From: Pseudomonas hefeiensis
Lineage (GTDB): Bacteria; Pseudomonadota; Gammaproteobacteria; Pseudomonadales; Pseudomonadaceae
Length of the DNA stretch: 64,000 bases
Reading direction: 5' to 3'
NCBI RefSeq assembly: GCF_030687835.1
Contig: NZ_CP117449.1
Coordinates: 6,143,001-6,207,000, forward strand
Below, one piece after another: positions 1,530 through 57,960 of the stretch. The translations under genes were made by a program, and so were the position numbers. The notes beneath the pieces are model-generated. The model was not told the DNA's origin. It did not search any database and saw only the letters and a list, made by a program, of their open reading frames with translations. Every line of letters starts with the position of its first letter. Positions within the stretch are counted from its first letter, which is position 1.

Positions 1530-1841
1530 GAATGACTCTCAGTTGGAAATAAGAAGTAACACATTGTTCACTTCCAATGACCTTCGCTCAAGGGCTGATG
1601 TGTTTCAGGAGCACATTTCATCGGATCTTCATGCTTTGGAAGTGATGTCACAAAAAATGCATTCCGAGATTAAAAAGCCATTACATAGCTAACGGCCATG
1701 TTTATAATCCCGCCGCCTTCTTATTGTCCGATGGCATAAAAGCTCCTCCGGTTATGAGGAACCGACAGCGCCCGGCGCTCGTCCGTGGATCGTCCCAGCC
1801 CGACCCGCACCCCCGGCTGATACCTCAGGGAAGAAGTATTC
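1530..1841 (+). promoter_or_regulatory. Divergent intergenic region with sigma70-like promoter for the lipoprotein cluster
   Basis: This gap separates the leftward FTR1 gene from the rightward lipoproteins. A sigma70-like promoter is visible: TTACAT at 1681-1686, a 16-base spacer, and TATAAT at 1703-1708. It would leave a leader of about 125 bases. No other gene is apparent. Confidence 0.45.
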
Positions 1842-3239: not shown

Positions 3240-3257
3240 GAACGGAGTCTTGTTCAA

Positions 3258-3629
3258 ATGCGTTTAAAACTGATCACCATCGGTGTCCTGGCCTTGCTGG
3301 CCGGTTGCGCCACCCCCGCGCCGCCGGAGCCGGGCAGCGCCGCCAGCAAAGTCGTGGCCATGGGCAAGCAGAAAAACATCGTGGTCGGCGCCATGCGCGT
3401 GGCCAGGGAAAACGGTTACCTGACCGTCAATGTGCAGTTGAGCAACACCAGCTTCAACAACAAGACGATGTACTACCGATTTGCCTGGTTGGGACCGGAA
3501 GGCTTTCCGGTTGCCGAGGAAGAAACCTGGAAAAGCCTGACGCTGTACGGCGAACAAACCAGTTTCCTGCCGGCCATCGCACCGACACCCAAGGCTGTGG
3601 ATTTCCGATTGGAAATCAATACGCCTTAA
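3258..3629 (+). CDS. YcfL-family (DUF1425) lipoprotein
   Basis: This 123-residue lipoprotein has the lipobox LLAGC with cysteine about 17, followed by a small beta-sandwich domain typical of YcfL/DUF1425. The motif NTSFNNKTMYYRFAW is characteristic of the family. It starts 18 bases after the COG3014-like gene, so the two are probably cotranscribed. In enterobacteria ycfL neighbours lpoB (ycfM), and the same pairing is seen here. The function of YcfL is not established. Confidence 0.8.
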   Translation: MRLKLITIGVLALLAGCATPAPPEPGSAASKVVAMGKQKNIVVGAMRVARENGYLTVNVQLSNTSFNNKTMYYRFAWLGPEGFPVAEEETWKSLTLYGEQTSFLPAIAPTPKAVDFRLEINTP

Positions 3630-3646
3630 GACAGGCGCACATTCCC

Positions 3647-3752
3647 GTGGCGAGGGGATTTAGCGAAACGTCGCACCGCACCGCCGGGCTGCGAAGCAGC
3701 CCCAACATGTCTACGAGCGCTGCGCACTCGAACGGGGATAAATTCCCTCGCC
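3647..3752. repeat. REP element pair, intergenic
   Basis: Two inverted half-elements begin with gtggcgagggga and end with its near reverse complement, with GC-rich arms between. It matches the style of the other REP elements in this window. It separates the ycfL-like gene from the lpoB-like gene and may reduce read-through. Confidence 0.7.
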
Positions 3753-3787
3753 ATAAAACCTTTTATATAGCTATTGAGAGCACCTAA

Positions 3788-4375
3788 ATGTTCGTACGCA
3801 TCTCTTCCCTCGCCCTCGCCGCCCTGCTGGTCAGCGGCTGCGCCAACAACTCTCCGGTCCTGGGCAACAAGAACATCAGCTACGGCGACACCGAGGCCGT
3901 GGAAACCGTGACCAACGAATTTGGTTCCACCGACCTGCAAATGATCGCCGAGTCCATGACCCGCTCCCTGGCCCAGTCCGGTATTTTGCAAGGCCGCCCG
4001 GTGGTTCAGGTCTATGACGTGAAGAACAAGACCAGCGAGTACATCGACACCCGCGAGATCACCACCAGCATCAAGACCCAATTGATGAAGACCGGTGCGG
4101 CACGTTTCGCCAGCGACAACAACGCCATGGACAGCCAGGTTGACCAGCTCAAGCTGCAAAACCAGAGCGGCCTGTACAAGAAAAGCACCGTGGCCAAGAC
4201 CGGCAACATGATCGCGGCCAAATACCGCCTCGAGGGCTCCATCAGCTCGATCGTCAAGCGCAGCAGCGATTACAAGGACGTCTTCTACAAATTCAGCCTG
4301 CAATTGATCGACGTCGAAAGCGGTCTGGCCGAGTGGATGGACGAGAAAGAAATCCGCAAGACCACGGAGCGCTAA
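3788..4375 (+). CDS. lpoB: Penicillin-binding protein activator LpoB-like lipoprotein
   Basis: The 195-residue lipoprotein has a lipobox LVSGC with lipidated cysteine about 18, then an LpoB fold (alpha/beta, related to the TolB N-terminal domain). LpoB proteins sit in the outer membrane and contact the bifunctional peptidoglycan synthase PBP1b. Conserved family features include the DLQMIAESMTRSL helix and the KYRLEGSISSIV strand near residue 140. It lacks the long proline-rich linker of the E. coli protein, and many pseudomonads use LpoP instead, so the PBP partner is inferred. The next gene starts 3 bases after its stop codon. Confidence 0.75.
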   Translation: MFVRISSLALAALLVSGCANNSPVLGNKNISYGDTEAVETVTNEFGSTDLQMIAESMTRSLAQSGILQGRPVVQVYDVKNKTSEYIDTREITTSIKTQLMKTGAARFASDNNAMDSQVDQLKLQNQSGLYKKSTVAKTGNMIAAKYRLEGSISSIVKRSSDYKDVFYKFSLQLIDVESGLAEWMDEKEIRKTTER

Positions 4376-41956: not shown

Positions 41957-43138
41957 GTGACTAGAAATCCAGTTGAGCGGGCCCTTATGGCACGAGGGGT
42001 AGACAGTGCGTTGGCCAGGAAGCTGAGGGAGGAGAAGTGGACGCTTGCGAAGCTCCAACTACAGCGTCCGGAGAAACTGCTCGAACTGGGGTTCACAGAA
42101 TCCGTCGTGCCCAAGATCCTCGGCAAAAGCAGGCCGCCAATACCACCGGATGTCCTCATCAAGACGCTTTATGACAACCGCTGGGTTTGCTGTGTCTGTC
42201 GAGATGCTGAGCGCCCGGTAGTCGTGCATCACATCAAGTCATGGGCGGAAAGTCGCGATCACTCTCCGGCCAACCTCGCAGTGCTTTGCTCTATCCATCA
42301 TGGGGAGGCGCACTCCACGCATGCTCTGGAGCTTACGCTCACCGCTGACCGGCTCAAGGCGGAAAAGGCGGTGTGGGAACAGGATGTGAGCCGGCTCGAT
42401 CCTTTGGCCATATTCAAAGCCACTCAGCTAATGAGTTGCCAGTGGTGGTACTTCAATCACCTCAGGGTTTTCGAAATTGCCGAACACGTCGGAGTGGAGA
42501 TCACCCAGCTCAAGGGGTTCCAGGGCGCCCTGCGCAATGGCGCGTGTGACGACGAAGGTTACCTTTGTTCCAGTGAGGGCCTCGTGTACGTCGGCCAGGC
42601 TCGGTCACTCTCGCTGTACCGGTATATGAGCAACATGCTGAAGGCCGCCATAGAGCATACCTGCGTCCGTAACATTTCGGATGACCTAGATCGGGGCACA
42701 CTCGATATTCTGGTTACACCTGGCGATCTGGTGTTCGTACAGGGTTCGTATCACTTCGCAGATATGCCTCCTGACGGTTCCGGCGCTGACATGGTTCGGG
42801 GGCGGCGAAGCGTCAACAAAGTCGAAATCACGTTCGTCTTCGACAGGAACGAAGGTACGTCCGGCTCAGCACGTTCGGAGTGGCTTCTTGGAGTACGCTC
42901 TTTGGGCTGTTTGCTACGTGCGAACAAGCTAGAAAGAGACCTCAAGGGCACCTTGCATATCGAAGCTACAGTGCTGGCGATTCGCAGCGCCCATGAGGAA
43001 TTGAAGACAAGAATGTATGAAATTGGCCTCTATCAAAGCGGCCTGATAGGTCATGAGGTGGAGGATGAGGAATTGGAAGATTTCGATCCTGATTACGATG
43101 AGGACGATGGTCGAATTGATGACTCACTTTACTCGTAG
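41957..43138 (+). CDS. HNH-nuclease domain protein
   Basis: The 393-residue protein has a treble-clef HNH: Cys78/Cys81 (VCCVC), His91-His92-Ile (VVHHIKSW), Asn106, Cys111, and the His114/His115/His119 set (CSIHHGEAH). The C-terminal 250 residues are of unknown fold and end in an acidic tail (DPDYDEDDG). The N-terminal 70 residues may bind DNA or partners. It precedes an AbiJ-NTD4 gene with about 180 bases between, a common neighbour pattern in defence islands. Confidence 0.75.
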   Translation: MTRNPVERALMARGVDSALARKLREEKWTLAKLQLQRPEKLLELGFTESVVPKILGKSRPPIPPDVLIKTLYDNRWVCCVCRDAERPVVVHHIKSWAESRDHSPANLAVLCSIHHGEAHSTHALELTLTADRLKAEKAVWEQDVSRLDPLAIFKATQLMSCQWWYFNHLRVFEIAEHVGVEITQLKGFQGALRNGACDDEGYLCSSEGLVYVGQARSLSLYRYMSNMLKAAIEHTCVRNISDDLDRGTLDILVTPGDLVFVQGSYHFADMPPDGSGADMVRGRRSVNKVEITFVFDRNEGTSGSARSEWLLGVRSLGCLLRANKLERDLKGTLHIEATVLAIRSAHEELKTRMYEIGLYQSGLIGHEVEDEELEDFDPDYDEDDGRIDDSLYS

Positions 43139-43320: not shown

Positions 43321-44124
43321 ATGAAGGATTCATTTTCAAGGCGTCACGGTTTCTCGCAGGTCGATGAGGCCGAGATCACCGTACGAGAGGATGCACCGCA
43401 AGCGCTGCAGGAATATCTGATTCAATTGAGCTACGAATGTGGTCTCAAACCATCAGGACTGCGCGAAATCATCTGCCAGACTTTGAAGGTATTGCCTGAC
43501 AGGGGGAACTGGAGCGAGACGCCCAATATCCACGAGGAGAATGTCCAGCGCCTTGAGCAATGCAAGTGGTTCAAAGTGTATGACGTCATCGAGCGGCTTG
43601 ATGCCTATTTCGGCAACCGAAATTACGACGGCGACGTTTATGAGCACTTCACGACTGAGCTGAACGAGTTCTTCATCGAGCACGGCATAGGCTGGAAGCT
43701 GCTCGGTGGCCGCATCGAAATGCGTGGCTCTGAATCCTTTGAGCAGGTTTTGACTTCTGCGAAAGAAACTGAGCATCAACACGGTCACGTCACGGCCAGC
43801 AAGGAATTGCACCAGGCGATAGCTGACCTCTCACGCCGGCCATCCCCAGACCCGACGGGAGCAATTCAACACGCCATGGCCTCGCTGGAGTGCGTTGCTC
43901 GACAGGTCACTGGGGATCAACAGGCAACCCTGGGCAGGATCATGAACGATTGCCGAACGCTAATTCCAGCACCATTAGATCAGGCAGTTATCAAAACTTG
44001 GGCGTACGCGTCGGAGTTCGGACGGCACATCCAAGAGGGTCGCGAACCGTCCTTCGAAGACGCTGAACTCATTGTTGGCCTGTGCGCCTCGGTCAGCAGC
44101 TACCTGATCAAAAAATCGAAGTGA
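43321..44124 (+). CDS. AbiJ-NTD4 domain protein (abortive-infection type)
   Basis: The 267-residue protein starts SFSRRHGFSQVDEAEITVRE, then SYECGLKPSGLREIICQTL and WSETPNIHEE, all hallmarks of the AbiJ-NTD4 domain. The C-terminal part (DPTGAIQHAMASLECVARQV ... AELIVGLCASVSSYLIKK) is the HEPN-like domain usually joined to it. HEPN proteins often act as RNases that stop phage growth. The active Rx4-6H motif is not obvious here. Confidence 0.8.
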   Translation: MKDSFSRRHGFSQVDEAEITVREDAPQALQEYLIQLSYECGLKPSGLREIICQTLKVLPDRGNWSETPNIHEENVQRLEQCKWFKVYDVIERLDAYFGNRNYDGDVYEHFTTELNEFFIEHGIGWKLLGGRIEMRGSESFEQVLTSAKETEHQHGHVTASKELHQAIADLSRRPSPDPTGAIQHAMASLECVARQVTGDQQATLGRIMNDCRTLIPAPLDQAVIKTWAYASEFGRHIQEGREPSFEDAELIVGLCASVSSYLIKKSK

Positions 44125-44525
44125 CTGAAATCGTCGTTTGGCCCTCGGCAGGGGCTAGCCATTAGTGCAGGGTCGCTCGGATGTTGGATGACGGTGGCCG
44201 CTAGTATCTCCGGTCGCAGCTAGCCCGGCATCGGTTGTCCATATGGTAGAAGGGGGCAGTGGCCAAAGAGGTCGTCCAAGCGATCACTTCACTTCGGTAG
44301 ACGCTGTGTGCCTGTTCAGCGACGCTTTCGGCTTTACGAGGAAAATCCCTCTTCGAGCGCTGCCATATCCAAACATTCGCTGCGCGCGGGCTCGATGAGA
44401 GCTATTGGCATCCCTTCCAAGAGGGGCTTCCGCCGCCCTGCAGCCATGCTATATGATGTCATTACGCCATCATCCTATCGCTGGATGAGACGAGCCGGGC
44501 CCCTTTCACAAGGATAGTTTTGGTC
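44125..44525. other. Non-coding region before the repeat-bearing gene
   Basis: About 400 bases with no convincing frame. Its last 40 bases (from 44485) are similar to the region before the second copy at 54232, including the ribosome site ACAAGGA before the ATG. Confidence 0.5.
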
Positions 44526-45291
44526 ATGACGTACATTAACCTGCCCAGTAATCAGCAATCAGCAATCTGCAATCTGCAATCAGCAATCAGCAATCAGCAA
44601 TCAGCAATCAGCAATCAGCAATCAGCGACGTTGATGAGACAGCGCTTCGGGCGCAGTGCGCAAGTGCCTCGATGAAGAGCGTATAGGGCCTATTCATGGC
44701 CTTGGGCTCAGTGACTGTGGCCCCTACGTGAGTACCAAGCTCCATGGGTTTCAGCAAGCGATCACTGAGTACAGCAAGGCCAAGGCCCACGCCAAGCGTG
44801 AACGCACTCGGCAGGATGCTCTGTATGCCGGCAATGATCTCATTCATGCTTTGCAGCAGATGAAAGGGCGGCTCGAAACTGAGCGTAAAGAGGGCGAGCT
44901 GTTCTTCATTGATGATCAGATCACGCCGCCTTTCCATCTCAGCAAGCGGCTATCGGTGCCTGTGTCGTTTCGCTGGCGAGCGTCGCCATCTGCGGACTGG
45001 AAGCACGGCTATGTGACGTTCGTCTACGATTTCTCCCCTCAGCCGAGTTACACTTCGTTGCCCAAGCGTAAACCCAGCGCGGCACAGGTAGAGAGGGATC
45101 TTGAAGACAGTCGCTACCGAGAGTGGGAGGGTTTGAAGGCCCAGGCACTCTTCTCGATGAGGGAGTTCTTCCGCGATGGCGGCGATGGCGATGCTGTGCC
45201 GGAGGTGTTCGCGGTGAGGCCTAGTCCCTACGGTGGGGGCCTTAATAACTTCAGCTGTAATTTCTGGCAGCCCGAGAGGCCGGCACCATAA
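44526..45291 (+). pseudogene. Hypothetical protein gene with heptanucleotide repeats and frame breaks
   Basis: The ATG at 44526 encodes MTYINLPSNQQ, the same start as the copy at 54275. Next come eleven 7-base units (AATCAGC, two of them AATCTGC) at 44550-44626. Seven is not a multiple of three, so each unit gained or lost changes the frame; with the present number the start is out of frame with the body. The body (from about 44656, RKCLDEERIGPIHGLGLSDC ... to the terminal NFSCNFWQPERP) is one further frame away, needing one added base near 44655. Full protein would be about 255 residues. No domain is recognised. Confidence 0.55.
44550..44626 (+). repeat. Heptanucleotide tandem repeat, 11 units
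   Basis: Eleven consecutive 7-base units, AATCAGC or AATCTGC, lie within the first 35 codons of the gene at 44526. Slippage would switch reading frame, the typical architecture of a phase-variable gene. Confidence 0.9.
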
Positions 45292-45635
45292 ATCTGGCAA
45301 GCCATCAGCCCCGGTAACTGGGGCCGATGTGTACAACCTTTGGCGTACCAAGTCTGCGTGGGCCGGGGAGCGCTAGGCAATTTTTGTCTCAACTGGAGTG
45401 GTTTTTGCCCCGGTTTTGTTGGCATACGCTTCATCTGAAATAGCCGATCCTCACTTCCCATCATGGGATTTCACCTTGTGTAACGCAGGTCGTGACGCTA
45501 TAGTGGGTGTGCGGGAAATAAGAGCAGGGCTCCGAGATCATCAGGCGAAATTGGATCTGGAGTGTGGATTGCACGGAGACGCCATCCGTGTGGTAGCGGC
45601 ATCAGACTTCGGTCTGTTGGCATGTGACCCAACCC
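45292..45635. other. Gap with possible small plus-strand ORF
   Basis: A possible 82-codon frame (45398-45646) encodes SWDFTLCNAGRDAIVGVREI ... DLECGLHGDAIRVVAASDFG, which reads like a real protein but has no clear start signal. Its end overlaps the palindrome aacccctaggggtt (45630-45643) at the end of the neighbouring leftward gene; that palindrome may be a weak terminator. Confidence 0.35.
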
Positions 45636-46217
45636 CTAGGGGTTAGCTAAGCAAGCGCTGCGACTACCATCCCGCATATCTTCTTCAGTCAAGGGCGCCA
45701 AATCTGGCGCCTTTGGCGTTTCTGGGATTTGAAAACCCTCAATCATCCCGACAGCTTTCCCGTTCGGCGTGCGGTTGCGATAAGCCGTCACCACGCTGTA
45801 ATAGAGCTGGTCATCGCCGATAGGCCAAGCTGCTAATACTGCACACCCTTTGCGACCCCGGAGCACGATCAGTCGCTCGTTCCCCTTCATCGAGTCAAAC
45901 TCACAAACGATGTTTGTGCCATGCACGATGATGTCGGACACAAAACGCGGTACATCATAGACCGTTGGGTAGCCCCACTTTACCAGGTCATGCCCACGCT
46001 CTTGCCAGATGTGGCGTACACCGAAGCCTTTGTGGGGCCCGATGTGCTTGCCCGCCCTGAGGTAGATATCCCCGCCGGGCTGTTGCAATAACTGGCTGGT
46101 GACCTTCACCAATCCCCAGGATTCCAGGCCTGTGGTGGGGTGAGCAATGTTGAAATCTTCGTGATGGTCGAACTCGACCGGTATCGCCTGAGGCGGCGGC
46201 GCCTTAAAACGTGACAT
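45636..46217 (-). CDS. BECR-fold-like (toxin-type) hypothetical protein
   Basis: The 193-residue protein has a core GFGVRHIWQERGHDLVKWGY, PTVYDVPRFVSDIIVHG, then RLIVLRGRKGCAVLAAW and SVVTAYRNR. This order (a HI ... H helix, a FVSDII helix, then hydrophobic strands ending in a tyrosine/arginine) resembles the Barnase-EndoU-ColicinE5/D-RelE nuclease fold found in phage and toxin proteins. It could therefore be an RNase toxin. The similarity is by eye only. It has no obvious antitoxin next to it. Confidence 0.5.
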   Translation of the reverse strand: MSRFKAPPPQAIPVEFDHHEDFNIAHPTTGLESWGLVKVTSQLLQQPGGDIYLRAGKHIGPHKGFGVRHIWQERGHDLVKWGYPTVYDVPRFVSDIIVHGTNIVCEFDSMKGNERLIVLRGRKGCAVLAAWPIGDDQLYYSVVTAYRNRTPNGKAVGMIEGFQIPETPKAPDLAPLTEEDMRDGSRSACLANP

Positions 46218-46473
46218 GCCAGCAATCCTTAACTACCTGATGGCTCCATTCTCACGTCACGACTGGCCGTGTCAGAACCGCACTCTCCCATTTTATAGAA
46301 TTTAGCGATGCTGGTGGTCACTAAGTGTCTGCGGCGAGGGCTCCAGATGAAGAAGCTAAGCCGGGGGATTCTTAGAATCGTGCAGGTGGCTCGACGACTC
46401 AATAGGTTTGGGTTACGGACTTGCAGAGGCTTGTAGCGGACGAGCTCATTTGTGATAGCCCAAGCGCTGAGGT

Positions 46474-47577
46474 TTACGGGTATAGCTTGAAGTCACTGCC
46501 CTCATGCCACTGGCTAAGATCGATCTCAGTGATTTCTAGCCCGTAGGTACGTAGCAGCCAGCGTGTTTGCTCGCCGTATTCACTTCCAGGCTCACTGCGA
46601 CCATGTAGCGCAATGCGATTGTTCACCAAGGCGATATCACCTGGCTGCAAAGGAACAGCGATCGCGCAATCAGCGCATGCGTGCTTCAAGGCGTCCATCG
46701 CTTCCTGCGCCGATTTGTGGCCGATGTCAGCAATCTGCGTGTTGCTGTGGCTGAACCTGATCCACCAGCTCCCATTCATTTGGAAGAGAAGCTGTGCATC
46801 ATCGACATCGAGCTCGTCGCCCAGGATGTCTACCATTCCATCCCGGAAGGTCAGCTGTGAACCGATGATGTACTGAGGCTTCTGGAGCTCCTCAATATGC
46901 TCTTCGCTCAAGCGCGCCATAAGGTGGTCGAGAGGCATAACCGTGGTCGGCACTTGCTTTGGGTTACGCAGGGCCGACAAGCACACGAAGTCTGGAGAGG
47001 GGGCAATGCGTTCATTCAGGGGGTCGCGGTATCCCCGCAACGGGAAGGTCACGCCATCCGTGTGCCCACTCATCTTGTCCGCCGATTTGACTGTGTATTT
47101 TCCTCGGCCAGGCGGGAACACCACCAAGTTAACGAACAGGTCGCCTCCGTTCTCGGAGCCGTAGGAAACCGTGGCGGAATTGATAGCCGCAAGGCACGCG
47201 ATCGCAGTTACTCGGGCAATGACCGTGCCTTCTGCTTCAGGCACCGGGCAAAAATCAATGGGGGTATCGGGTAGGTCATCTGGCCGGAAGATACCCTCCA
47301 GCGTCAGGCAAGGCTGTGCCCATGCAAAGGCTTGCACCTCTGCACAGCTGCTCCCCCGGATATTGAGCTCGCGTTCGATCGCAGGCTGCAGCTCACGCCC
47401 CAGATCGCCAGGGCGCGCCAGGTACTCAAGCACTTGCTCATAGGTCACGTTCGCTCGCCATTCGCTGACTGCGACACGCACTGCTTCTGTAAAGATTGCC
47501 TGGATCAATTGTATCCCTACACGCGCGAGTGATATAAAAGTGATGTACGTCAGCGTGATTATCACGCACGATCCCAC
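46474..47577 (-). CDS. TauD/TfdA-family Fe(II)/2-oxoglutarate dioxygenase
   Basis: The 367-residue frame has the 2-His-1-Asp site: HTD in MSGHTDGVTFP and the distal His in IALHGRSEP, with Arg in RWLLRTYG for 2-oxoglutarate. It resembles clavaminate synthase/L-asparagine oxygenase types. The true start is probably a GTG about 20 codons in (VGIQLIQAIF), because the first residues overlap the promoter region and read as a hydrophobic, non-family stretch. It is divergent from the regulator gene at 47596. Role in the island is unclear; hydroxylation of an amino acid or nucleotide is possible. Confidence 0.75.
   Translation of the reverse strand: MGSCVIITLTYITFISLARVGIQLIQAIFTEAVRVAVSEWRANVTYEQVLEYLARPGDLGRELQPAIERELNIRGSSCAEVQAFAWAQPCLTLEGIFRPDDLPDTPIDFCPVPEAEGTVIARVTAIACLAAINSATVSYGSENGGDLFVNLVVFPPGRGKYTVKSADKMSGHTDGVTFPLRGYRDPLNERIAPSPDFVCLSALRNPKQVPTTVMPLDHLMARLSEEHIEELQKPQYIIGSQLTFRDGMVDILGDELDVDDAQLLFQMNGSWWIRFSHSNTQIADIGHKSAQEAMDALKHACADCAIAVPLQPGDIALVNNRIALHGRSEPGSEYGEQTRWLLRTYGLEITEIDLSQWHEGSDFKLYP
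47553..47567. promoter_or_regulatory. Near-perfect 15-base palindrome, putative operator
   Basis: GCGTGATTATCACGC reads the same on both strands apart from its central base. It lies 28 bases before the start of the regulator gene at 47596 and inside the divergent promoter region, where an autoregulatory operator is expected. Confidence 0.55.
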
Positions 47578-47595
47578 CAGCGACTAAATTCGTCT

Positions 47596-48666
47596 ATGAA
47601 AATGCCCAAGCTTCAGCCTGCCGATTATCTCCAAGGGTGCGCTAGTTTCCTAGCCTGCCTTAAGCCATTCATGCACTTGCGGGAGACCTCCCAGGGCATT
47701 GAGTGTGAGATGACTCTGGCTAATGGCCAGCCTGTAGTGGTCACCGGCAAGGACGAGCCGCACCTGCTGCTTGGCTTGATGTCCGTACTCGTCGAACTGA
47801 TTCCAGCTGACGAACGGTCAGCGATGCCACCTGTCTCACGCACAGTGCCTGCGGATAAGCAGACTTTGGAGGCGACCATGCAACCTACCGCTACTACCAA
47901 AATCACCGATGAACGAACCCAAGCTGCCCGCTTGCAAATTGGTTTAACTACCAAGGTCTCGCTTCACGAATTGGTAAGACGCGTAGCAAAACGCCGTGGG
48001 GTATCGCTGTCGATCGCTGCGCGAGATCTGGTGCAGGACGGGCTGACCCGGTTCGATAAAGAATCAAGGACAGTAGACCCTTCGGAACTGCTGACTGATT
48101 ACGAGCGCACTGCCAATGATTACGAAGGTGCCGATTCGGAGAGTTGGATTATCCGGGCTGACAGGCGTCTGGTGATGAGAACGCGTTTACGCGCAGGTGA
48201 ATATGAGCGCTCGTTGTCATCATTCACCAACTTCCTTCTCGCCAACGCGTTGAGCCATTGCCCTCACGCTGCCGCTGTGCGTGAGGCAACGACTAGTTCG
48301 ATTACCAGTGATGAGGCTGTCGTAGAGGCTATCAAGGCGATCGAGCGGGTCAGTGGGGTCAAAGCCCGTGCTCTCGCTCCTCAGATCGATCTAGGTGAGC
48401 AACGCGGCCTGACCAACATGATCCTTGGTGGTTCGGTACTGGCGCCTGCGCGAGTCCTGGCGAAGCTGGCCGTCGTTCTGAAAAAGCCTTTGGACGTTGT
48501 GTCGGTAGCCTTGGAGCGTCGGTTCGCCACCCAATGCGTTCCAGCTTTCAAAGCGACTGATGGAAAACCCACCGTGCAAGCGGAACGCAAGGCGTGGAGT
48601 GTCGCAGTCAAAGAGCTTCAGCTGCCGGCTGAGGAACAAGAGCGTCTCCTGAACCTAGAGGGCTAA
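47596..48666 (+). CDS. Putative regulator, first gene of the ImmA/IrrE-helicase operon
   Basis: The 356-residue protein has two regions that look like DNA-binding folds: residues about 112-155 (TKVSLHELVRRVAKRRGVSL ... ARDLV), ribbon-helix-helix-like, and residues about 272-310 (NMILGGSVLAPARVLAKLAVV), which reads like an XRE helix-turn-helix followed by a KKPLDVVSVAL helix. ImmA/IrrE proteases commonly cleave an XRE repressor encoded beside them; this would be that partner. Its stop lies three bases before the next GTG. Family is not confirmed. Confidence 0.55.
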   Translation: MKMPKLQPADYLQGCASFLACLKPFMHLRETSQGIECEMTLANGQPVVVTGKDEPHLLLGLMSVLVELIPADERSAMPPVSRTVPADKQTLEATMQPTATTKITDERTQAARLQIGLTTKVSLHELVRRVAKRRGVSLSIAARDLVQDGLTRFDKESRTVDPSELLTDYERTANDYEGADSESWIIRADRRLVMRTRLRAGEYERSLSSFTNFLLANALSHCPHAAAVREATTSSITSDEAVVEAIKAIERVSGVKARALAPQIDLGEQRGLTNMILGGSVLAPARVLAKLAVVLKKPLDVVSVALERRFATQCVPAFKATDGKPTVQAERKAWSVAVKELQLPAEEQERLLNLEG

Positions 48667-48668
48667 GT

Positions 48669-51600
48669 GTGAATCCGTTCGACCGGGCACGTCGGCAAGC
48701 ATTCGAAACCCGAGAAGCCCTGGTCGGATTGGCCGCTTCTCTAGGTGGCGTCAGCTCCTCTGAGCTCTTGGCTCATGTTGAGGACACGCTCGAAATCGCG
48801 ATTGAGCGCTTACCTTTCGGGCACCCAGAGTTGGGTGGCGGCAGCGGGGTGCTCAAGCGAGAAATTCAAACTATCTACATCCGCAACGACGTGTCTCCAG
48901 GAGAAACGGCCTATCTCATCGCCCATGAGTTGGGTCACTGGTATCTCGACGGCGATCGCCCCGCACAGACGGTCGCTCATCTGACCAGCATGACGGATTC
49001 CTATGGGAGCCAGGCTACGGTGGCGGTAGAAGCATACGGTGCTCGTGAACGCTTGGAGCTTCAAGCCAACGTTTTTGCCCGTGAGCTTCTGCTACCCCGT
49101 GGTGTCGCAAGCCAACTGTTCCATGGCGGTAATGGTGCCACGGTCATCGCGGTCACTCTGGAGGTACCGCTGGAGATCGTTCGTCTTCAGCTATTCGACG
49201 GCATTTTGCTCCCCATATTGCCTCCTGCTCCACCTCCTCCTCTGCCGCTTATGACGCAGGGACAGCACGACGCTGCTACCGCGTCCGAAACCTTCGTCAA
49301 CGTTGTTGCCGGGCCGGGTACTGGTAAAACGACGACACTGATCCATCGCATCAAGCACCTGGTCGAGCGCGGTATCCCTCCCAGCCAAATCTTGGTGCTG
49401 ACCTTCACGAACAAGGCGGCTCATGAATTGGTGGAGCGCCTGAAGGTATCTGGCATCGCCGGAGCCGCCGACGTGTGGGCCGGAACTTTCCATGCATTCG
49501 GGCTCGAATTCCTTCGCAAATACCATCAGATTTTCGGACTGGAGTCCGACGTTCGGCTCGCAGATCCGCTGATGCAAGTTCGCCTGATGGTGAGCACGCT
49601 GCCCAAGGTGCGGCTCAAGTATTACCTGAGACTACAGAACCCGTACGATTGGTTACCTGGCGTTCTTGGCCATATCAAACGTCTCAAGGAAGAATGCCTC
49701 ACGGTTGCCGACTACCGAGCACGTCTGGCTGCACTGCCGCCCTGCGAGCCCGATGTAGCCAATGAGCGCGAAGACATCGCCACCCTGTTTGAAGCCTACG
49801 AAACAGCAATGCGAGCTGAGCATCTGGTCGACTACGTTGACCTCATTGCCCTCCCTGCATCCCAGGCCAAGCGGGATCGGACAAGCGTTGCTCAGTACAT
49901 CGACCATTTCTCGCACGTACTAGTGGACGAATATCAGGATGTCACCGAGGTGATGGTCGACCTCCTTCGGCAATTGGCTCTCAATGCTCAATCGTTCTGG
50001 GTCGTTGGTGACGTGCGCCAAGCCATCCACCATTGGCGAGGCGCATCGATCCGTAGCTTGATGCACTTCGACGCCACGTTCCTGAGCACCATTCCAGGAG
50101 CAACGGTGCGCCGCTACGCCCTCGACCTGAATCGGCGAAGCACCCCTGAGATCTTGGAGCTATTTTCCTGCGCAGGCATCCATCATGCACTGAATGACCG
50201 GATGCCTCTGGAACCAGTCACGGCGTATCGTCCCTCGATCGGGGTCATACCTACCCTCTATGAATGCGACTCCAAGCCCTCCCAAGCCGTCACCATCGCT
50301 CAGCGCATTGATGGGCTGGTGCAGAGGGGTGTCCCGTACAGGGATCAAGTCGTGATCAGCCGCAAATCGGCAAACGTTGAGCAAATTGTTGAAGCGCTTG
50401 AAAACCTGAATGTGCCAGTGCTGCACATCGGCGATGTCTGCCAGCGCCCTGAAATAAAGAAGCTGCTGTGCCTTATGGAACTGCTGTGCATGCGACAGCC
50501 GCGCTCACTGGTCGGGCTGATCTCTGAGCCAGCGTTTCGAATGCCACCCCAAGATATTGAGCACCTCATATTCCTGACCCGCAAAGGCGCAGGATTGAGC
50601 ATGCAGCGAGGCCGGTGGCTATGGCTGCCTACGCCAGGCCTCTCGCCCGCTGGCCAGCAAGCTAAGTCAAATTTGGCGTTGCTGTTGAGAGGGCTCAAGC
50701 GGAATTCAAGGCCTTGGGATTTTGTCGCCAAAGTACTGCTCGATCAGCGCTACGGTCTTCCAAACCCTGCTGATCAAACCATTCAGGCCCATACTCAGCG
50801 CTTGGCAACATGGCTGTTCGTCTATGCCGTACGCAATGGTGACGGAGATATCCGCCAGGCACGGCTTTCCCAGTTCCTACTTCGCGAGGAGCTACGCCGT
50901 AGGATCGGAGAAAAGCTAGGGGATCGTGGTTTACCGCCTGAAGCGCGAGTCCTGGATGCGGTGAGCGTTATGACCGTGCATTCCAGCAAGGGGGCTTGAG
51001 TACCCAGCAGTTCACGTCACCGATGTTGACGACGCGTCATACGGCGCCAATCGACCCTATGCATACGATGTGCGGGGGTTAGATCTCATCCCTCCCGAAG
51101 TTTTGAACAGCACTGGATCAGAGTTCATGTTTGAAGAACGGGTGGAGCGCAATAACCTGCTCTACGTCGCTCTGTCTCGGGCCCGTGATTACCTGTATCT
51201 CTATGAGATCAGCGGGTGGCCACGTCCAGTTCCGCTCAATCGCGCTGCTGCCACGAGTCTGGTTAAGCGCTCAGGGGTGAAGGTACCGCCCGCACCCATC
51301 ATGCCGGTGCCGTTGGCTAGCAGCACCGTGGTACCCACTGTGAGCTATGAGGCGTTCCAGGCCTACATGAGCTGTCCCCTCCAGTACCACTATCGCCATG
51401 AGCTAGCGCTCACTGCCGAGCAGGAAATCGATGTCTCGATCCGTGCCCGCTGGGCGATTACGGACATGCTGTTGGCCGTGGCGAGGGATGGCACTGACCC
51501 CAACACGGCATTCCAAGCCGCATGGGCGTTACACGGACTTCCAGATAGGGCAGAAGACCCTGGCTTGATGGATGATGCGATTGCTGCCGCCAAGCGTGGG

Positions 51601-51975
51601 CTGGTGGTGGTTAACAGCGTCGGCGGTGCCGTCGAAGAAGGGATGGTTTCCGAAGTCAACGGTGTGCGCATTGAGCTCCCTTGGATGCTCGTCGATAAAG
51701 GGCAGCTGCACTGGATTCGAGCTCAGACGGGAATCCAGTACACCCTCAGTCACCTACGGCCCATGATGCTTGATATCAATGGCTCTCGAAGGCCGAGTGC
51801 GAAGATCTACTCCATTATCACTGACCAGCACGTGATGGATGGCCCTTCCAAGCAGGCCGCGAGCACGTCCGTTTACAAGATGGCTCAACGTTTTGCTGCA
51901 GGTGATCGATCTGCTTCCAGGGGCCGGCATTGTGGGCGCTGCGCGTATCTGAGCATCTGTGCCAATATCCCCTGA
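48669..51975 (+). pseudogene. ImmA/IrrE metallopeptidase fused to UvrD-like helicase and PD-(D/E)XK tail (apparent one-base frameshift)
   Basis: GTG at 48669 starts it. Residues about 60-110 are an ImmA/IrrE-type domain with zinc motif HELGH (His86-Glu87 ... His90) and ELQANVFARELLLP. Residues 200 onward are a superfamily 1 helicase: Walker A GPGTGKTTT (215), VDEYQDV (from residue 419), GDVRQAIHHWRG, then SSKG. In the SSKG codons a run of five G (50990-50994) makes the frame stop (TGA 50997). Removing one G gives SKGLEYPAVHV and continues to 51975 with helicase motif VI LLYVALSRARDYLYL and a nuclease-like tail (SYEAFQAYMSCPLQYHYR ... CGRCAYLSIC) with four cysteines like the Fe-S site of Cas4/AddB. 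About 1,102 residues if intact. Confidence 0.75.
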
Positions 51976-52059
51976 TTGACCTCCGCGGCCCCGATTTTGA
52001 GTGGCTGGCTTGAACTTGAATAGGCTGTTCTCCTGTTTACCTGGCAATAGGATGACTAT

Positions 52060-52956
52060 GTGATAGGCAACATTTTCAACGTTTTTTCTCGAAGGAAGGA
52101 AAACAAGTCGGTGGCTAGAAAACCACTGACAGACGGATTCAGGCGTCGGACGCTCATGTTGCTGCGCGACGCAAATGGTGGAAGCTTGTATGAAACCCTT
52201 GAGTTTCTTCACGGAAAGCTGACCTATTTAGTTGGGCGAGTCCCGCTCACTCAGACCAAGGTTGACTCAATTGTGGAGGACGCCATGCAGTTCCTCCGAA
52301 CGTGCAGTGACGCTCACTTTCTCGATGCTGTGGAATACATTGTCCACTCAGACGCACACCGTTGCTTGGGCGGCCAGCAAGAGAAGGTCGTGGAAAGGCT
52401 CAATGAATTTTTGAGTGTTGACGATCTGCCTTATTTCATCACCAAGCAGATTTGGGAGTCGTGGCAGAGTGACGACTTTGGCGGCCAATCCATTCGGTTG
52501 CTCGAAGAGTCCAAGGTGATTCCGAAAGACAGCCAGGTGATTCATGAGACAGCCATCGAGCCAGCTCTTGAGCTGCTTCGGCAGCCCGCCTTCCGCCATG
52601 CCAATGCTGAATTCATGGCTGCGCTAGAGGACTACAGGCACCAGAAATTCGGAGACTGTGTCACCAAGTGCAACTCCAGTTACGAAAGCGTGATGAAGGT
52701 GATTTGTGGCCAGAAGGGCTTCGGGTATACCCAGGGCGATACCACCTCGAAGCTCTTGAGAACGATCATGGGGCAGACTCAAATGGATAGCTTTTGGGAG
52801 TCGCCACTGCTGATCGTGGGCACTCTCCGTAACAAGCTTGGCTCTGCCCACGGAGCAGGAGAAAAGGCGAAGGTAGTGCCCGAGCATGTGGCAAAGTACG
52901 CGCTCAACGTGACAGCATCCGCCATGGTGTTCCTAAATGACCAGGCTTATAAGTAG
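52060..52956 (+). CDS. Abi_C (abortive-infection) protein with N-terminal helical domain
   Basis: A GTG at 52060 with AGGA upstream gives 298 residues. The C-terminal third is clearly the Abi_C domain (PF14355 type): ALEDYRHQKFGDCVTKCNSS, a motif LRNKLGSAHGAG, and HVAKYALNVTASAMVFL. The N-terminus (SVARKPLTDGFRRRTLMLLRD) resembles AbiJ-type N-terminal domains. It starts 84 bases after the helicase gene, likely same operon. Effector (HEPN-like RNase) is the likely role. Confidence 0.72.
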   Translation: MIGNIFNVFSRRKENKSVARKPLTDGFRRRTLMLLRDANGGSLYETLEFLHGKLTYLVGRVPLTQTKVDSIVEDAMQFLRTCSDAHFLDAVEYIVHSDAHRCLGGQQEKVVERLNEFLSVDDLPYFITKQIWESWQSDDFGGQSIRLLEESKVIPKDSQVIHETAIEPALELLRQPAFRHANAEFMAALEDYRHQKFGDCVTKCNSSYESVMKVICGQKGFGYTQGDTTSKLLRTIMGQTQMDSFWESPLLIVGTLRNKLGSAHGAGEKAKVVPEHVAKYALNVTASAMVFLNDQAYK

Positions 52957-53010
52957 GATCTGATTTTTCCAATACACAAACCCGAAATATCACTTGCGCA
53001 AAGGATTGTT

Positions 53011-54126
53011 ATGCAAAGTTATAAAGATGTTGTTGAGGATTACATCAAGCGGCAGATTTTCTCGGAAACTGGCGAAGCGTTTCTCGATCTTTCGATCCAA
53101 GAGGATGTAATCTATTCTGAGTTTGATTTTCTCGGTCGAATGCTGTGTCAGAAATATATAGAGGGTGATTCGAGCTTCTATCTATTAGACAGCGTGCAAG
53201 TCCAAGCCGCAGCTGTTCATGGTCATCAAGCGGTTTTAGTTTGTAAGGGCATGCTTGATCTTATATTTCGCACCTCAGCTATGATGGTGGGGGCAGAGCG
53301 GCGTCAGAAATCCCCAGAGGATGAATTCTACGAGCCCTGGGTAAACAATTTAAGCTACTGGTTTAAGAGCGCTGAATTCGATTGGTCGGATGAAAGGTAT
53401 TGGTGGCTTTATCAGGACGATTATAGGAAAGCTTTCGAAATGCTTGCCGAAGGCTTGTTTGTATTTCTTGTGTTGCATGAAATAGGACATCTCCATAATT
53501 TGCACGGGGACAGACGAGCCGGAAATTCAAAATCTGCACCCCCTTCCTCATCATCAAGCACTGATGAAGTCTTTGTGCATGAGGCGATGAGTGGAGGTGA
53601 GGCGATGAGTGAGGCCGATAGGCTGGCTGCACACACTCGTGAAATCATCGCAGATACTTATGCATTTCAGTTCATGCTTGTCGAGCTTAGAGAAAGCTTG
53701 CTTCCGGAGTCGGAGTATATTGGCTATGACGAAGGAGCGCTCCGCTCAGTGCATTTTGGCGTATGTATTTACATGGTAGCTTCCTTGTTCTGGGCGTTCA
53801 GCTTCCAGCGGCCAATGCGGAATGACACCCAAGAAGATGATTACCCCTCTCATCTTTTCAGACTGCAAAGCATTGAGGCTACCTCTCTTGAGCATCAACT
53901 GGCTGGTGGTAATAAAGAAACTTATGACGGTATGGCGCTCGGAATACAAACTTACACCCAAAAATTAATTTGTGCTGCTGGAGATGAGGGCTTTGTTTCT
54001 TGGCGTATGGCGGCTAATCTCCCAGCGAATCACGAGCACTACAAGAAGGTTTGTGAAATGACGGATGAGTGGTCAAATATTAAGTTTGGTGTGCGCAATG
54101 AGGATTGGCTTCGCTGGCCATTCTGA
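53011..54126 (+). CDS. HExxH metallopeptidase-like protein
   Basis: The 371-residue protein has the zinc motif HEIGH at residues 156-160 and the third-ligand region REIIADTYAFQF (Glu211-Asp215), the arrangement of gluzincin peptidases. Two hydrophobic patches flank it (FVFLVLHEIG and FGVCIYMVASLFWAF), so it may touch the membrane. It is lower in GC than its neighbours. It ends the operon that starts at 47596. Substrate is not known; a partner protease in the defence operon is inferred. Confidence 0.65.
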   Translation: MQSYKDVVEDYIKRQIFSETGEAFLDLSIQEDVIYSEFDFLGRMLCQKYIEGDSSFYLLDSVQVQAAAVHGHQAVLVCKGMLDLIFRTSAMMVGAERRQKSPEDEFYEPWVNNLSYWFKSAEFDWSDERYWWLYQDDYRKAFEMLAEGLFVFLVLHEIGHLHNLHGDRRAGNSKSAPPSSSSSTDEVFVHEAMSGGEAMSEADRLAAHTREIIADTYAFQFMLVELRESLLPESEYIGYDEGALRSVHFGVCIYMVASLFWAFSFQRPMRNDTQEDDYPSHLFRLQSIEATSLEHQLAGGNKETYDGMALGIQTYTQKLICAAGDEGFVSWRMAANLPANHEHYKKVCEMTDEWSNIKFGVRNEDWLRWPF

Positions 54127-54231
54127 AGTTTTGAGCAGGTAAACCTAAATAACCTCACCGTGCGGTGGCATCTCAAACGGCCACCTTCTGGGGTGAGGGA
54201 TAGGCGGAAAGTTGCCAGTGGCTTTAGCCCA

Positions 54232-54533
54232 AGATGAGGCGGTGGCTAGACCTCTTACAAGGAAAGTTGTGGTTATGACGTACATTAACCTGCCGAGTGA
54301 TCAGCAAGCTGCAATCAGCGACGTGGATGCTGTGCCTGAGGTGTTCGCGGTGAGACCTAGTCCCCACGGTGGGGGGTTGAATAACTTCAGCTGCAATTTT
54401 TGGCAGCCCGAGAGGCCGACACCCTAAATTCGAGCGAGCATCAGCCTAGGTTGCTATGGCCGATGTGAGCAATCGCTCGCGTACCGAGTCTGCGTGGGTC
54501 GGGGATCACTAGGGAATTCGAGCCTCAACTGAG
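54232..54533 (+). repeat. Direct-repeat copy 2 (internal deletion)
   Basis: It shares flanks and both ends of the open frame with 44485-45397, but the middle of the gene is missing. The deletion junction lies at a GATG microhomology shared by both sides (gacgttGATGag and ggcGATGctgtg in copy 1). Confidence 0.75.
54275..54427 (+). CDS. 50-residue protein, internally deleted paralogue of the gene at 44526
   Basis: The ORF reads MTYINLPSDQQAAISDVDAV and ends NNFSCNFWQPERPTP, fusing the N-terminal about 17 residues and the C-terminal about 33 residues of the longer copy in frame. It has an AAGGA before its ATG. It may be a decayed copy or a functional small peptide; it is the only clue to the correct frame of copy 1. 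Confidence 0.55.
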   Translation: MTYINLPSDQQAAISDVDAVPEVFAVRPSPHGGGLNNFSCNFWQPERPTP

Positions 54534-55215: not shown

Positions 55216-55282
55216 GACTGGTCAAATCCGACGCAAACGACTGGTCAAGTCAAATGCAAATGGTGGTCAAGTCCATGCAATT
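55216..55282. repeat. Three 21-23 base direct repeats
   Basis: The units begin ggtcaaatcc, ggtcaagtca and ggtcaagtcc, spaced 23 bases, ending in gcaaa or gcaat. Such multiple short repeats are seen at the ends of IS21-family elements, so this may be an IS end left behind at the 3' end of gajB. Confidence 0.5.
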
Positions 55283-56369
55283 ACTCAGCGGCGGCAGTTG
55301 GATACCAATAGGGGATCTGTGAGGCCCCTGGCTTATCCAAGACAATCGCCACGCTTTGCTCGGCCCGTGTGACCGCTACATAAAAATCGGCTGCGGATAG
55401 GGGCAAGAGATACTCCCCTTTGCTGATGAACTTGCCGATAGGTTCGGTTGGATAAATCAGCACGCGGTTGAAGGTTTGCCCTTTGGACACCCCAAAATTC
55501 ATGTAGTTGAGGTCGAACTCTGTGCCCGAGCGAATGCTGTTGCGCAGGCACTGGGGCTGGAATGTCTCAACGTACTGACGTACGTGAGTCTTCTTCACGA
55601 GGAAAACGCCGTCGTGGGGTGTGATCGCGTGATTCTGTGAGGTCGTTTTCGGAAACTCCCAGATCGCCTCAAAGATGGTGTCGGAAAAGGTAGCTATTGT
55701 CTGGCAGCACCTCCACGTGACAGAGCTGTAGTTGATTTCCAGACGGCCAGCTTTCTGCTGTTTTTTGAACCATGCAATGGATTTCGAGTAGGCAAAGGCT
55801 TTCTTCATCTGACCACGAGGATTGGTGGACAAGACTGCCTGACGGACATCTCCGACGAGCCGTATCTCAATGCGTGTGCCGAACAGCGCCTCCAGGATGT
55901 CCCAGTCGTAACCCGAAAGATCCTGAACCTCGTCGATGAGTATTTCGTCGTAAAGGCATTCGAGGCGTTGAATCAAGGCCCCGCCGCTTTGGCCAATCAG
56001 TTGGTGGGCCAAGCGTGCTAATTCTTTCCCATACACACTGTCCGACGAATCGAAAAAACGATTCTCACCGCTGGCATATCGCCCTGGATCACCTTCGAAA
56101 TTGAAGCCCTTGCAGCGCTTGCCGGGAAATGCAAACGGGACGAAGGGTTTGACGAAATGACGTATTAGGAAGCTGAACCAGCCAGAGACCTCCAAGCCTG
56201 GTCGCTCGCCGGCGTACCGCCTTACACGCTCGCGCAACTCGATCTGATTGGTCTGTGCGAATGTGATGAGCAGAACTTTACGATCGGCTGGTAATGCCTT
56301 GCAATGCTCCACTAGGCCTTGTGTCTTGCGAGCGCCCGCAACTGCCAGGGTCAGGTAATTTTTAGCCAT
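55281..56369 (-). CDS. gajB: Gabija GajB (UvrD-like helicase)
   Basis: I start at the ATG at 56369, overlapping the gajA stop by eight bases. The open frame extends upstream, but that part is inside gajA. The 362-residue protein is a small superfamily 1 helicase: Walker A AVAGARKTQG, ILIDEVQDLSG, LVGDVRQAVLSTNP, and motif VI YVAVTRAEQSVAIV at the end. In Gabija, GajB senses DNA ends or nucleotide depletion and activates GajA. It is shorter than the Bacillus protein (494 residues). Confidence 0.82.
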   Translation of the reverse strand: MAKNYLTLAVAGARKTQGLVEHCKALPADRKVLLITFAQTNQIELRERVRRYAGERPGLEVSGWFSFLIRHFVKPFVPFAFPGKRCKGFNFEGDPGRYASGENRFFDSSDSVYGKELARLAHQLIGQSGGALIQRLECLYDEILIDEVQDLSGYDWDILEALFGTRIEIRLVGDVRQAVLSTNPRGQMKKAFAYSKSIAWFKKQQKAGRLEINYSSVTWRCCQTIATFSDTIFEAIWEFPKTTSQNHAITPHDGVFLVKKTHVRQYVETFQPQCLRNSIRSGTEFDLNYMNFGVSKGQTFNRVLIYPTEPIGKFISKGEYLLPLSAADFYVAVTRAEQSVAIVLDKPGASQIPYWYPTAAAE

Positions 56370-57960
56370 GAATGAACGCCGCTGCCGCTGCCATATAAGG
56401 TGGCGGAGTGATCGCCTCCTTGGATTTGGCGATGAGAAGTGCTGCTTCCGTTTTCTCTCTCGACATCCATTTCTCAAGGCTGGCCCGATCAGTGACTCCA
56501 AGAATCTTGCGCAGAGACTCTTCGCTGTTGCACGCCCGCAATTGTGGCTCCAATGTCCTGCCAGCTTCCTTTGCGCCAATGAAGAGCTCTCGCTTTCCTG
56601 TTTCTAGTAGTTCGTTGACGGTTTCCTTAAGGATTTCTGGGTCTTCCCCATCGTTGTCTCGAAGCACTGCAACTGGGCGATCGATGGCAGTACACAGTTC
56701 CAGGCAGCGCCTCAACGTCAGCCCATGCATGCTCATCACATCAATCCCCAGCTCCATCGGGTGCTTACCGTAGAGGTCGCTGAAGAATCGCTCAAACAGA
56801 ATCTCGTCCGAAGGGCCCTCCACTAGGACGAGCTTGTGAGCCAGCACCATCCGCAACGTGTCGAAGCCTGGGAGCTTTTGGAAATAGCCGACGGTGTCCG
56901 GATCAAGCGTTTCTATGTGAGATGCCTTGCCGCGATGCAGGAGGAGCAAGGAGCTCAGGCCGAGGCGATTCAGCACATAGGCACTGTGGGTCGAGATGAA
57001 CAGTTGACGCTCACCTGCAGCCTCCTCGATGCGCGACAGCAGCGTGGTCAAGCTCGTATGCGACAGATGATTCTCTGGCTCTTCAATCATCACGATGCTG
57101 GTCTGCTCGGACAAGCGCTGCATGGCCAGCGAAATCTTGATCGAAGCCTGCTGTCCCTGGCCAGCCAAGGCGAACGGCACATGATCCACGTGTGGTGTGA
57201 CCGACCCTTCCCAGGAGGATTGAGCACTTTGATCCATGGCCAAGGCCATCACCTGATTATCCAGTGGCGCTCGAATATTCTTGAGGCGATCATTCACGCC
57301 TCCCAGGGAGTTAGATGTCATGGACTCTTTGATCTCGCGGTAATGCTGGGAGATCTTGGCTTTCTCGACCGGCTCCAAATGGTCACTTAGGATTTGACGC
57401 AGGTGGTAGTCAACGCCTGAGGTCGAGCGGACGGTACGGGAATCGATAGTCGCAACGGCGAGCTGCCGGGGGCGCCTAGTCAGTACCTCATCCCCAAAGG
57501 TACGCCATTCAATCTTGTAGTACTCGACGGGGATCAGCGCGCTGGGGTTGATACGCCATTGGGTGAGTTCCTCGTCATACTCAGGGTTGGGAATGACCTT
57601 GAATGAGATGCCAGGGCAGGCATTTGTCTTCCTGTCGCTATTGATCGCGCCACAGAGAAATTGCAGCTCAGGTCGATTTTCAAGAAATAGCTCAATCAGG
57701 ATTTCTGGCAGTGCTGGGTTATCATCCCAATCGCAGTCCTCCAGGAATTGATTAACGAGCTCTTTGTTGAACCAATAGGGGTTTAACTCCTCCTGAGCGG
57801 AGCGGCCACCGATACGTCCGTTTAATGCCAGACCAATCGCCTCCATCAGGGTCGATTTTCCCGCGTCATTACCGCCCACAAGGATGTTGAGATCTTTGTT
57901 TGGCAGCAGCGTGAAGTCGCCGTAGATCCGATAACCCTGGATTTTGATCTTCGTGATCAT
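56362..57960 (-). CDS. gajA: Gabija GajA (OLD-family ATPase/Toprim nuclease)
   Basis: The 532-residue protein has Walker A VGGNDAGKST (residues 28-37), the ABC-type LAGQGQQASIKISLAM segment, Walker B MIEEPENHL, and then a Toprim domain: VEGPSDEILFERFF and VLRDNDGED. This is an OLD-family (class 2) nuclease. Together with the UvrD-like gene right behind it, it makes a Gabija anti-phage system. GajA cuts DNA when nucleotides fall, as during phage infection. Confidence 0.85.
   Translation of the reverse strand: MITKIKIQGYRIYGDFTLLPNKDLNILVGGNDAGKSTLMEAIGLALNGRIGGRSAQEELNPYWFNKELVNQFLEDCDWDDNPALPEILIELFLENRPELQFLCGAINSDRKTNACPGISFKVIPNPEYDEELTQWRINPSALIPVEYYKIEWRTFGDEVLTRRPRQLAVATIDSRTVRSTSGVDYHLRQILSDHLEPVEKAKISQHYREIKESMTSNSLGGVNDRLKNIRAPLDNQVMALAMDQSAQSSWEGSVTPHVDHVPFALAGQGQQASIKISLAMQRLSEQTSIVMIEEPENHLSHTSLTTLLSRIEEAAGERQLFISTHSAYVLNRLGLSSLLLLHRGKASHIETLDPDTVGYFQKLPGFDTLRMVLAHKLVLVEGPSDEILFERFFSDLYGKHPMELGIDVMSMHGLTLRRCLELCTAIDRPVAVLRDNDGEDPEILKETVNELLETGKRELFIGAKEAGRTLEPQLRACNSEESLRKILGVTDRASLEKWMSREKTEAALLIAKSKEAITPPPYMAAAAAFIHG

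Follow-up and report, generated by a model that had tools for sequence, protein, structure and literature searches.

The window analysed here is a stretch of 64,000 nucleotides from Pseudomonas hefeiensis (contig NZ_CP117449.1, positions 6,143,001 to 6,207,000 of the forward strand; the host genome is a single contig of 6.45 Mb). It carries a gene for a TauD-like Fe(II)/2-oxoglutarate oxygenase (hereafter TauD) and, divergent from it, g1, encoding a regulator-like protein, g2, encoding an M78 metallopeptidase fused to a UvrD-type helicase motor, and two further genes, g3 and g4 (Table 1). A sequence-only reading of this DNA had proposed that g1 to g4 form one operon, composed of a regulator, a peptidase-helicase-nuclease fusion, an Abi_C protein and a second HExxH peptidase. 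The regulator open reading frame (ORF), the Abi_C gene and the HExxH protein are present as described, the last of them without a Pfam match. The fusion was borne out in part: Peptidase_M78 (E 9.5e-11) is joined to UvrD (E 8e-56) from 48669, with g2 split over two frames, and the cysteine-containing C-terminus, which runs to 51975, matches PDDEXK_1 (E 7.6e-7), with the D...(D/E)xK motif not conserved in the aligned strands. The four-gene operon itself gave way to a different arrangement, since the conserved unit is the divergent TauD gene plus g1 and g2; the TauD gene was absent from the sequence-only reading, though no other gene is so tightly linked to g1-g2.

Table 1 Features of the TauD-g1-g2 locus and of the two adjoining genes, in window coordinates.
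Feature	Position	Strand	Remarks
TauD-like Fe(II)/2-oxoglutarate oxygenase	46474-47577	-	Divergent from g1; Pfam TauD E 2.3e-10
Operator-like stretch between TauD and g1	47530-47567	.	TGATATAAA at 47530-47538; palindrome GCGTGATTATCACGC at 47553-47567
g1, 356-residue regulator-like protein	47596-48666	+	ORF; homologue directly upstream of g2 elsewhere
g1 residues 108-228, tandem ribbon-helix-helix	47917-48279	+	Predicted model
g1 residues 243-308, XRE/lambda-repressor-type helix-turn-helix	48322-48519	+	Predicted model
g1 residues 316-329, conserved loop, poorly modelled	48541-48582	+	Predicted local distance difference test score < 50; column identity
g2 first part, M78 peptidase and UvrD motor, ends at TGA	48669-50999	+	
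g2 M78 domain	48798-49193	+	HELGH at 48924-48938
g2 UvrD motor motifs	Walker A 49311-49331; DEYQD 49926-49940	+	
g2 second part, other frame: end of UvrD core and cysteine-containing nuclease-like domain	51000-51975	+	ORF listed from 51070
g2 cysteine codons	51373, 51931, 51940, 51958	+	
g3, DUF7014/Abi_C	52060-52956	+	STM4504/CBY_0614-like below that model's cut-off; judged a neighbour outside the unit
g4, HExxH protein without family	53011-54126	+	HEIGH at 53476-53490; judged a neighbour outside the unit

Of 398 genomes of the genus, 11 gave g2 matches at E <= 1e-40: seven close ones, including that of the window (the six others at 49-68% identity), and four distant ones (35-36%). Stretches of 20 kb were fetched around the ten matches from other genomes. 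In five of the six other close loci (L175-L179) g1 lies directly upstream of g2 and TauD is divergent beyond g1; the sixth (L180) carries a truncated g2 without g1 or TauD, its genome has no TauD match, and the ORFs at the truncated gene are what we take to be an IS3-type transposase. All three genes are also present in L223, from another family of the same order, with a close g2 at 44% identity. The trio TauD-g1-g2 is found in 6 of the 7 other genomes with a close g2, and in all six loci in which the close g2 is of full length. Genes that we presume to encode tyrosine integrases lie near the close g2 in L175, L176 and L180; the integrase-like ORFs of L175 and L176 are nearly the same over their common part.

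The same association was seen from the side of the oxygenase. TauD matches at E <= 1e-100 occur in six of the 398 genomes (the own genome, G239, G010, G131, G068 and G031; next best match 4e-20), all of them among the seven with a close g2. A wider comparison used the sizes of the longest contigs of 98 g2 relatives from the 120 listed, those left out being P0101-P0120 and two that had no contig: 33 were identical in size to that of one of the 120 listed TauD relatives, 16 to that of one of 75 g1 relatives and 12 to both, and in a control of the TauD matching with 120 offsets (1 to 60 bases either way) the mean was 0.15 and the maximum 1.

Neither g3 nor g4 was found in the seven other genomes with a close g2, nor, by tblastn, in any fetched locus outside the own genome (26 loci of about 12-23 kb), and both are absent from L223; as a control, g3 and g4 profiles, built from the window's own single sequences, find both genes in the window. 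The G+C content is 56.1-57.5% for TauD, g1 and g2, 52.5% for g3 and 46.1% for g4. Linkage of the four genes was rejected on this neighbourhood search, and the roles previously assigned to the Abi_C protein as a killer and to the second peptidase as a component are not supported by the same counts and base compositions. The sequence-only reading had itself named a lack of co-occurrence as grounds for giving up its four-gene set, and that is the outcome here. Sequences like g3 occur in 332 plasmid records, only 4 of them over 80% of its length; the Escherichia and Salmonella plasmid entries listed for g3 cover only its C-terminal domain, and Escherichia is not named among the g2 plasmid genera at E <= 1e-60, among the matches listed. 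For g4 there was no match in Pfam, PADLOC or NCBIfam, and tblastn in plasmids finds no relative.

Searches for the unit in mobile DNA gave little. Megablast of 45400-54300 gave no match among phages, and among plasmids it matched only the stretch of an unrelated ORF (45636-46217; 9%); in plasmids, tblastn of g1 found no match and tblastn of TauD only weak ones, none covering >80% of its length. No close g2 relative was found in viral contigs, and there was no DNA match in the E. coli genomes. The genome-contig scan and the first viral-contig scan returned mostly ordinary-looking UvrD helicases; of the 80 genome-contig loci, only L015-L020 were read for neighbourhoods, the rest entering, together with 80 viral loci, one tblastn only. 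One viral contig (L106) breaks off within a match of 37% to residues 57-280 of P0001, the g2 relative nearest to the window's, so that phages or islands may carry a distant relative of the M78-UvrD protein.

The regulator g1 is separated from g2 by 2 nucleotides, and its predicted structure combines a tandem ribbon-helix-helix with an XRE-type domain, placing a putative helix-turn-helix regulator next to the M78 peptidase. Residues 313-330 of g1 have a mean column identity of 0.78, matching that of the folded parts, and 5 of these 18 positions are invariant; we infer that residues 316-329 are a candidate cleavage or docking site.

The first frame of g2 stops at 50999, a point that we place just past helicase motif V, and the remainder continues in another frame to 51975. 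Intact copies exist, because the relatives of g2 are single ORFs of about 1101 amino acids, and P0001 is 99% identical to its first part. Since the gene is frame-broken in the window strain, the switch proposed below is probably dead there, the break being either real or a sequencing error. An alignment of 45 relatives (26 close and 19 distant, some of them near-duplicates; L020 was left out here and from the tree, as its contig ends inside the gene) showed the M78 ligands (HExxH plus the third), Walker A and Walker B conserved in 45/45, and the four C-terminal cysteines invariant in 45/45. The cysteine-containing region gave a PDDEXK_1 match in 20/20 relatives. In the strands where we assume the D...(D/E)xK motif would lie (P0001 residues 985-1020), by-eye counts found no conserved acidic residue and no ExK in the 26 close sequences, and D in one column in 12 of the 19 distant ones, with ExK absent. 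With the motif so placed, the expected residues are conserved in neither clade, and an active nuclease is not supported. The g2 model resembles UvrD and AdnB, in a fold comparison that barely reached beyond residue 875; a sequence search of the PDB gave nothing for the C-terminal piece and chance matches only for the M78 piece. A Gabija identity is doubtful for g2, whose best score with the GajB profile was 145.7 bits, far short of the 456.1 bits for the window's own GajB (55281-56579); GajA was not searched for beside the g2 relatives.

The TauD metal ligands (HxD...H) and the C-terminal Arg are invariant in 24/24 aligned rows, with HTD at 47056-47064 and ALHGR at 46597-46611 in the window; the true start of the gene may be the TTG at 47508. 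Its nearest solved relatives by sequence are the L-Arg, L-Lys and L-Asn oxygenases (E about 1e-6 to 1e-5), and there was no PADLOC match at E <= 0.001. In the gap between TauD and g1, TGATATAAA and the TGAT after it are invariant in the six loci aligned, L223 being left out of this alignment. The palindrome GCGTGATTATCACGC of the window has related palindromes in L175 and L176; among palindromes with arms of at least 6, none was found in L178 and L179 and only one, further away, in L177. Taken alone the window palindrome is weak, because shuffling the bases of its 215-base stretch gave one as strong in 41 of 2000 cases. The sigma-70 scan gave no site between TauD and g1, and the promoter and terminator scans scored below the shuffled means.

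The distant g2 relatives (about 30-38% identity; 87 plasmid records at E <= 1e-60) have a different set of neighbours. In all 20 distant loci read (L015-L020, L181-L189 and L198-L202) the order is a sigma-like gene (geneA), a small gene (geneB) and the M78-UvrD gene, followed in 19 of them by a ubiquitin-like gene (13 of the multiubiquitin type, 6 of the single-ubiquitin-like type; in L020 the contig ends). An E1 profile match lies within 9 kb in 13 of the 20, one of them weak; six loci with a ubiquitin-like gene showed no E1 at the profile sensitivity used, and TauD is present in none of the 20. As L185-L189 were used to build profiles, 15 of the 20 are independent. The genes downstream in L185 match PADLOC BilA (E 4.9e-57), BilB (E 3e-60), BilC (E 2.4e-61) and BilD (E 6.5e-175), and those in L017, L018 and L184 match profiles built from L185 and L187. 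In L188 they encode Multi_ubiq, DUF6791/ThiF and DUF6527, with only weak PADLOC E1-E2 matches for the E1; this plasmid also carries a second UvrD-type helicase (1370-4108, minus strand) beside the multiubiquitin operon.

The two clades are connected through g1, whose XRE-type domain with the tail to residue 354 is homologous to geneB: the C-terminal 113 columns of g1 align with it at an hhalign probability of 95% (pairwise E 3.4e-8), the geneB profile matches g1 in 7/7 close loci (19-41 bits), and the g1 profile finds 3/5 geneB sequences. Because of this homology, the core common to both clades is, as judged from sequence, the geneB/g1 C-terminus plus the M78-UvrD protein; geneA and geneB may be a sigma/anti-sigma pair under protease control. 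A tree was built from 46 g2 relatives, with two helicases as outgroup. The close clade forms one group in it (support 0.67) and joins L185-L187 (support 1.0); among these three, the four-gene Bil-type set is found in L185 and L187. The relatives linked to ubiquitin-like genes are paraphyletic. This paraphyly, together with the position of the close clade beside L185-L187, suggests that a ubiquitin-like output gave way to the oxygenase, in a tree whose rooting rests on distant helicases and with the TauD linkage known only for the loci read, not for each protein of the clade.

Elsewhere in the window, core-looking genes give way to island genes at about 34 kb, where the G+C content falls (about 57-65% before, about 47-58% from 34000 to 64000). 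A Gabija pair lies on the minus strand at 55281-57960 as two overlapping ORFs, GajA-like (56362-57960, PADLOC E 5.4e-205) and GajB-like (55281-56579, E 2.3e-137). Imperfect direct repeats at 44502-45395 and 54251-54531 flank the stretch of 45.4-54.2 kb; they are 77-88% alike in three families with one copy per side. The right-hand one corresponds to a truncated part of the ORF at 44656-45291; a homologue of this ORF (53%) stands right behind g2 in L180. Further genes on the plus strand encode an AbiJ_NTD4 protein (43321-44124) and a protein (41957-43138) with weak HNH and IscB matches, below or near the cut-offs.

We consider TauD-g1-g2, by analogy with CapH-CapP, to be possibly a proteolytic switch that is activated by DNA and has an output gene of its own, and give this reading a probability of about one half. 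The evidence throughout is of sequence and model, the linkage, the motifs and the predicted folds being observed. In the proposed scheme, g1 would repress the divergent TauD promoter; g2 would load onto single-stranded DNA (ssDNA) or ends arising from phage replication, plasmid entry or damage; this loading would switch on the M78 domain, which would cut g1 in or near its C-terminal domain; and TauD would then be expressed together with g1-g2. DNA sensing by the helicase part and cleavage of the adjacent regulator by the M78 part are made more likely by the XRE-type domain in the g1 model and by the homologue of the g1 C-terminus that is kept in the distant clade. The divergent oxygenase is the probable output of the switch; it could conceivably act in defence, adding a hydroxyl group to some amino acid, either free or within a protein. 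In the sister clade this controller core is followed by ubiquitin-like genes. The close clade is rare, being found in 7 of the 398 genomes, and its loci are related to each other.

The same observations bear on the other explanations. The four genes g1 to g4 lie on one strand with gaps of 84 and 54 nucleotides before g3 and g4, and g3 matches Abi_C and DUF7014, as would suit an operon for abortive infection, with an Abi_C killer set free by the switch and the second peptidase as an accessory; the absence of g3 and g4 from the seven other genomes with a close g2 and from the 26 fetched loci, and their differing G+C content, make this very improbable. An effector made of g1-g2 itself, with g1 as an antitoxin-like restraint, g2 as a helicase on invading DNA or forks and TauD as an accessory modifier, would agree with the conserved motor motifs, with the likeness of the g2 model to UvrD and AdnB and with the layout of an XRE-type gene before an M78 gene, which resembles that of toxin-antitoxin pairs (ImmA is listed among toxin-antitoxin genes in PMC8649781). 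We regard it as unlikely, however, as the expected nuclease residues are unconserved in both clades, and the presence of the same core before ubiquitin-like genes suggests control rather than effect.

It is also conceivable that the switch governs a metabolic or signalling gene under the control of DNA damage, TauD making a hydroxylated amino acid for some purpose other than phage defence; the solved enzymes closest to it in sequence act as hydroxylases of arginine, lysine or asparagine. Strong TauD matches, however, occur only beside the controller, genes that look integrase-like lie near some of the loci, and in L185 the sister clade's controller serves an operon of Bil type, all of which leave this a rather doubtful account of the locus.

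If the proteolytic switch is real, a motor-driven DNA sensor would join the ssDNA-activated protease-repressor switches, cleavage being predicted at residues 316-329 of g1 or in its C-terminal domain, and the locus would hint at how some ubiquitin-like conjugation operons are switched on. A wider and quite tentative proposal, which we think more apt to fail than to hold, is that of a controller family in which a DNA motor with a probably dead Fe-S-type nuclease, fused to a repressor-cutting protease, converts DNA engagement into gene switching, first for Bil and multiubiquitin operons and later for a 2-oxoglutarate oxygenase as a new class of anti-phage output. On the switch reading as such, the oxygenase would be a candidate new defence output, and its controller, with cousins beside a ubiquitin-like anti-virus system, perhaps an overlooked means of arming defences.

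Several known systems resemble parts of this arrangement. Among the oxygenases, those of L-arginine, L-lysine and L-asparagine have the sequence family and the metal ligands in common with TauD, the similarity being only at the E values given above. Bil (BilABCD) is joined to the sister clade, with an M78-UvrD gene directly upstream of the BilABCD genes in L185, whereas the gene linked in the window is TauD, and no ubiquitin-like, E1 or JAB gene was found by profile in the window's 40-60 kb stretch. AdnAB and AddAB have, like g2, a UvrD-type motor followed by a cysteine-containing region with a PDDEXK_1 match; g2 adds the M78 domain and does not conserve D...(D/E)xK. The four cysteines around the nuclease domain, of the AddAB/AdnAB/Cas4 type, are present in the g2 relatives, Fe-S binding being only predicted.

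The switches known to be driven by proteolysis are closer. According to PMC10904395, ssDNA activates PprI/IrrE, which cleaves DdrO within a loop of the DdrO C-terminal domain. As described there, this metallopeptidase targets a repressor once DNA has been damaged, as is proposed for g2 and g1; unlike TauD-g1-g2, it has no oxygenase. PprI/IrrE of Deinococcus is not known to carry a helicase fusion and is encoded at a locus separate from DdrO. CapP, too, presumably belongs to the M78 family, which fits its likeness to PprI. In the open-licence literature, among the matches listed, there was no description of a protease fused to a helicase or of such a protease linked to ubiquitin-like operons, and a term search found no mention of UvrD in PMC1779556, PMC11354881 and PMC2588565.

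According to PMC13373217, ssDNA activates CapP, which cleaves the repressor CapH, next to immune operons; CapW or CapH+CapP accompany 219 of 544 Bub operons, though phage protection by Bub operons is, as stated there, undemonstrated. CapH+CapP, so described, place a predicted DNA-binding regulator adjoining a metallopeptidase, as in the window, and the sister clade likewise stands beside ubiquitin-like genes. In L185 of the distant clade BilABCD comes next to the controller; the linked gene of the close clade is TauD, in a putative role. The g1 protein differs from CapH in modelling with a tandem ribbon-helix-helix, and in contrast to CapP, as far as its description goes, the peptidase is here fused to a UvrD motor and a nuclease-like domain with four cysteines, with TauD as the putative output. 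As judged from sequence, it is this fusion of a motor to a protease that is the unusual feature of the locus.
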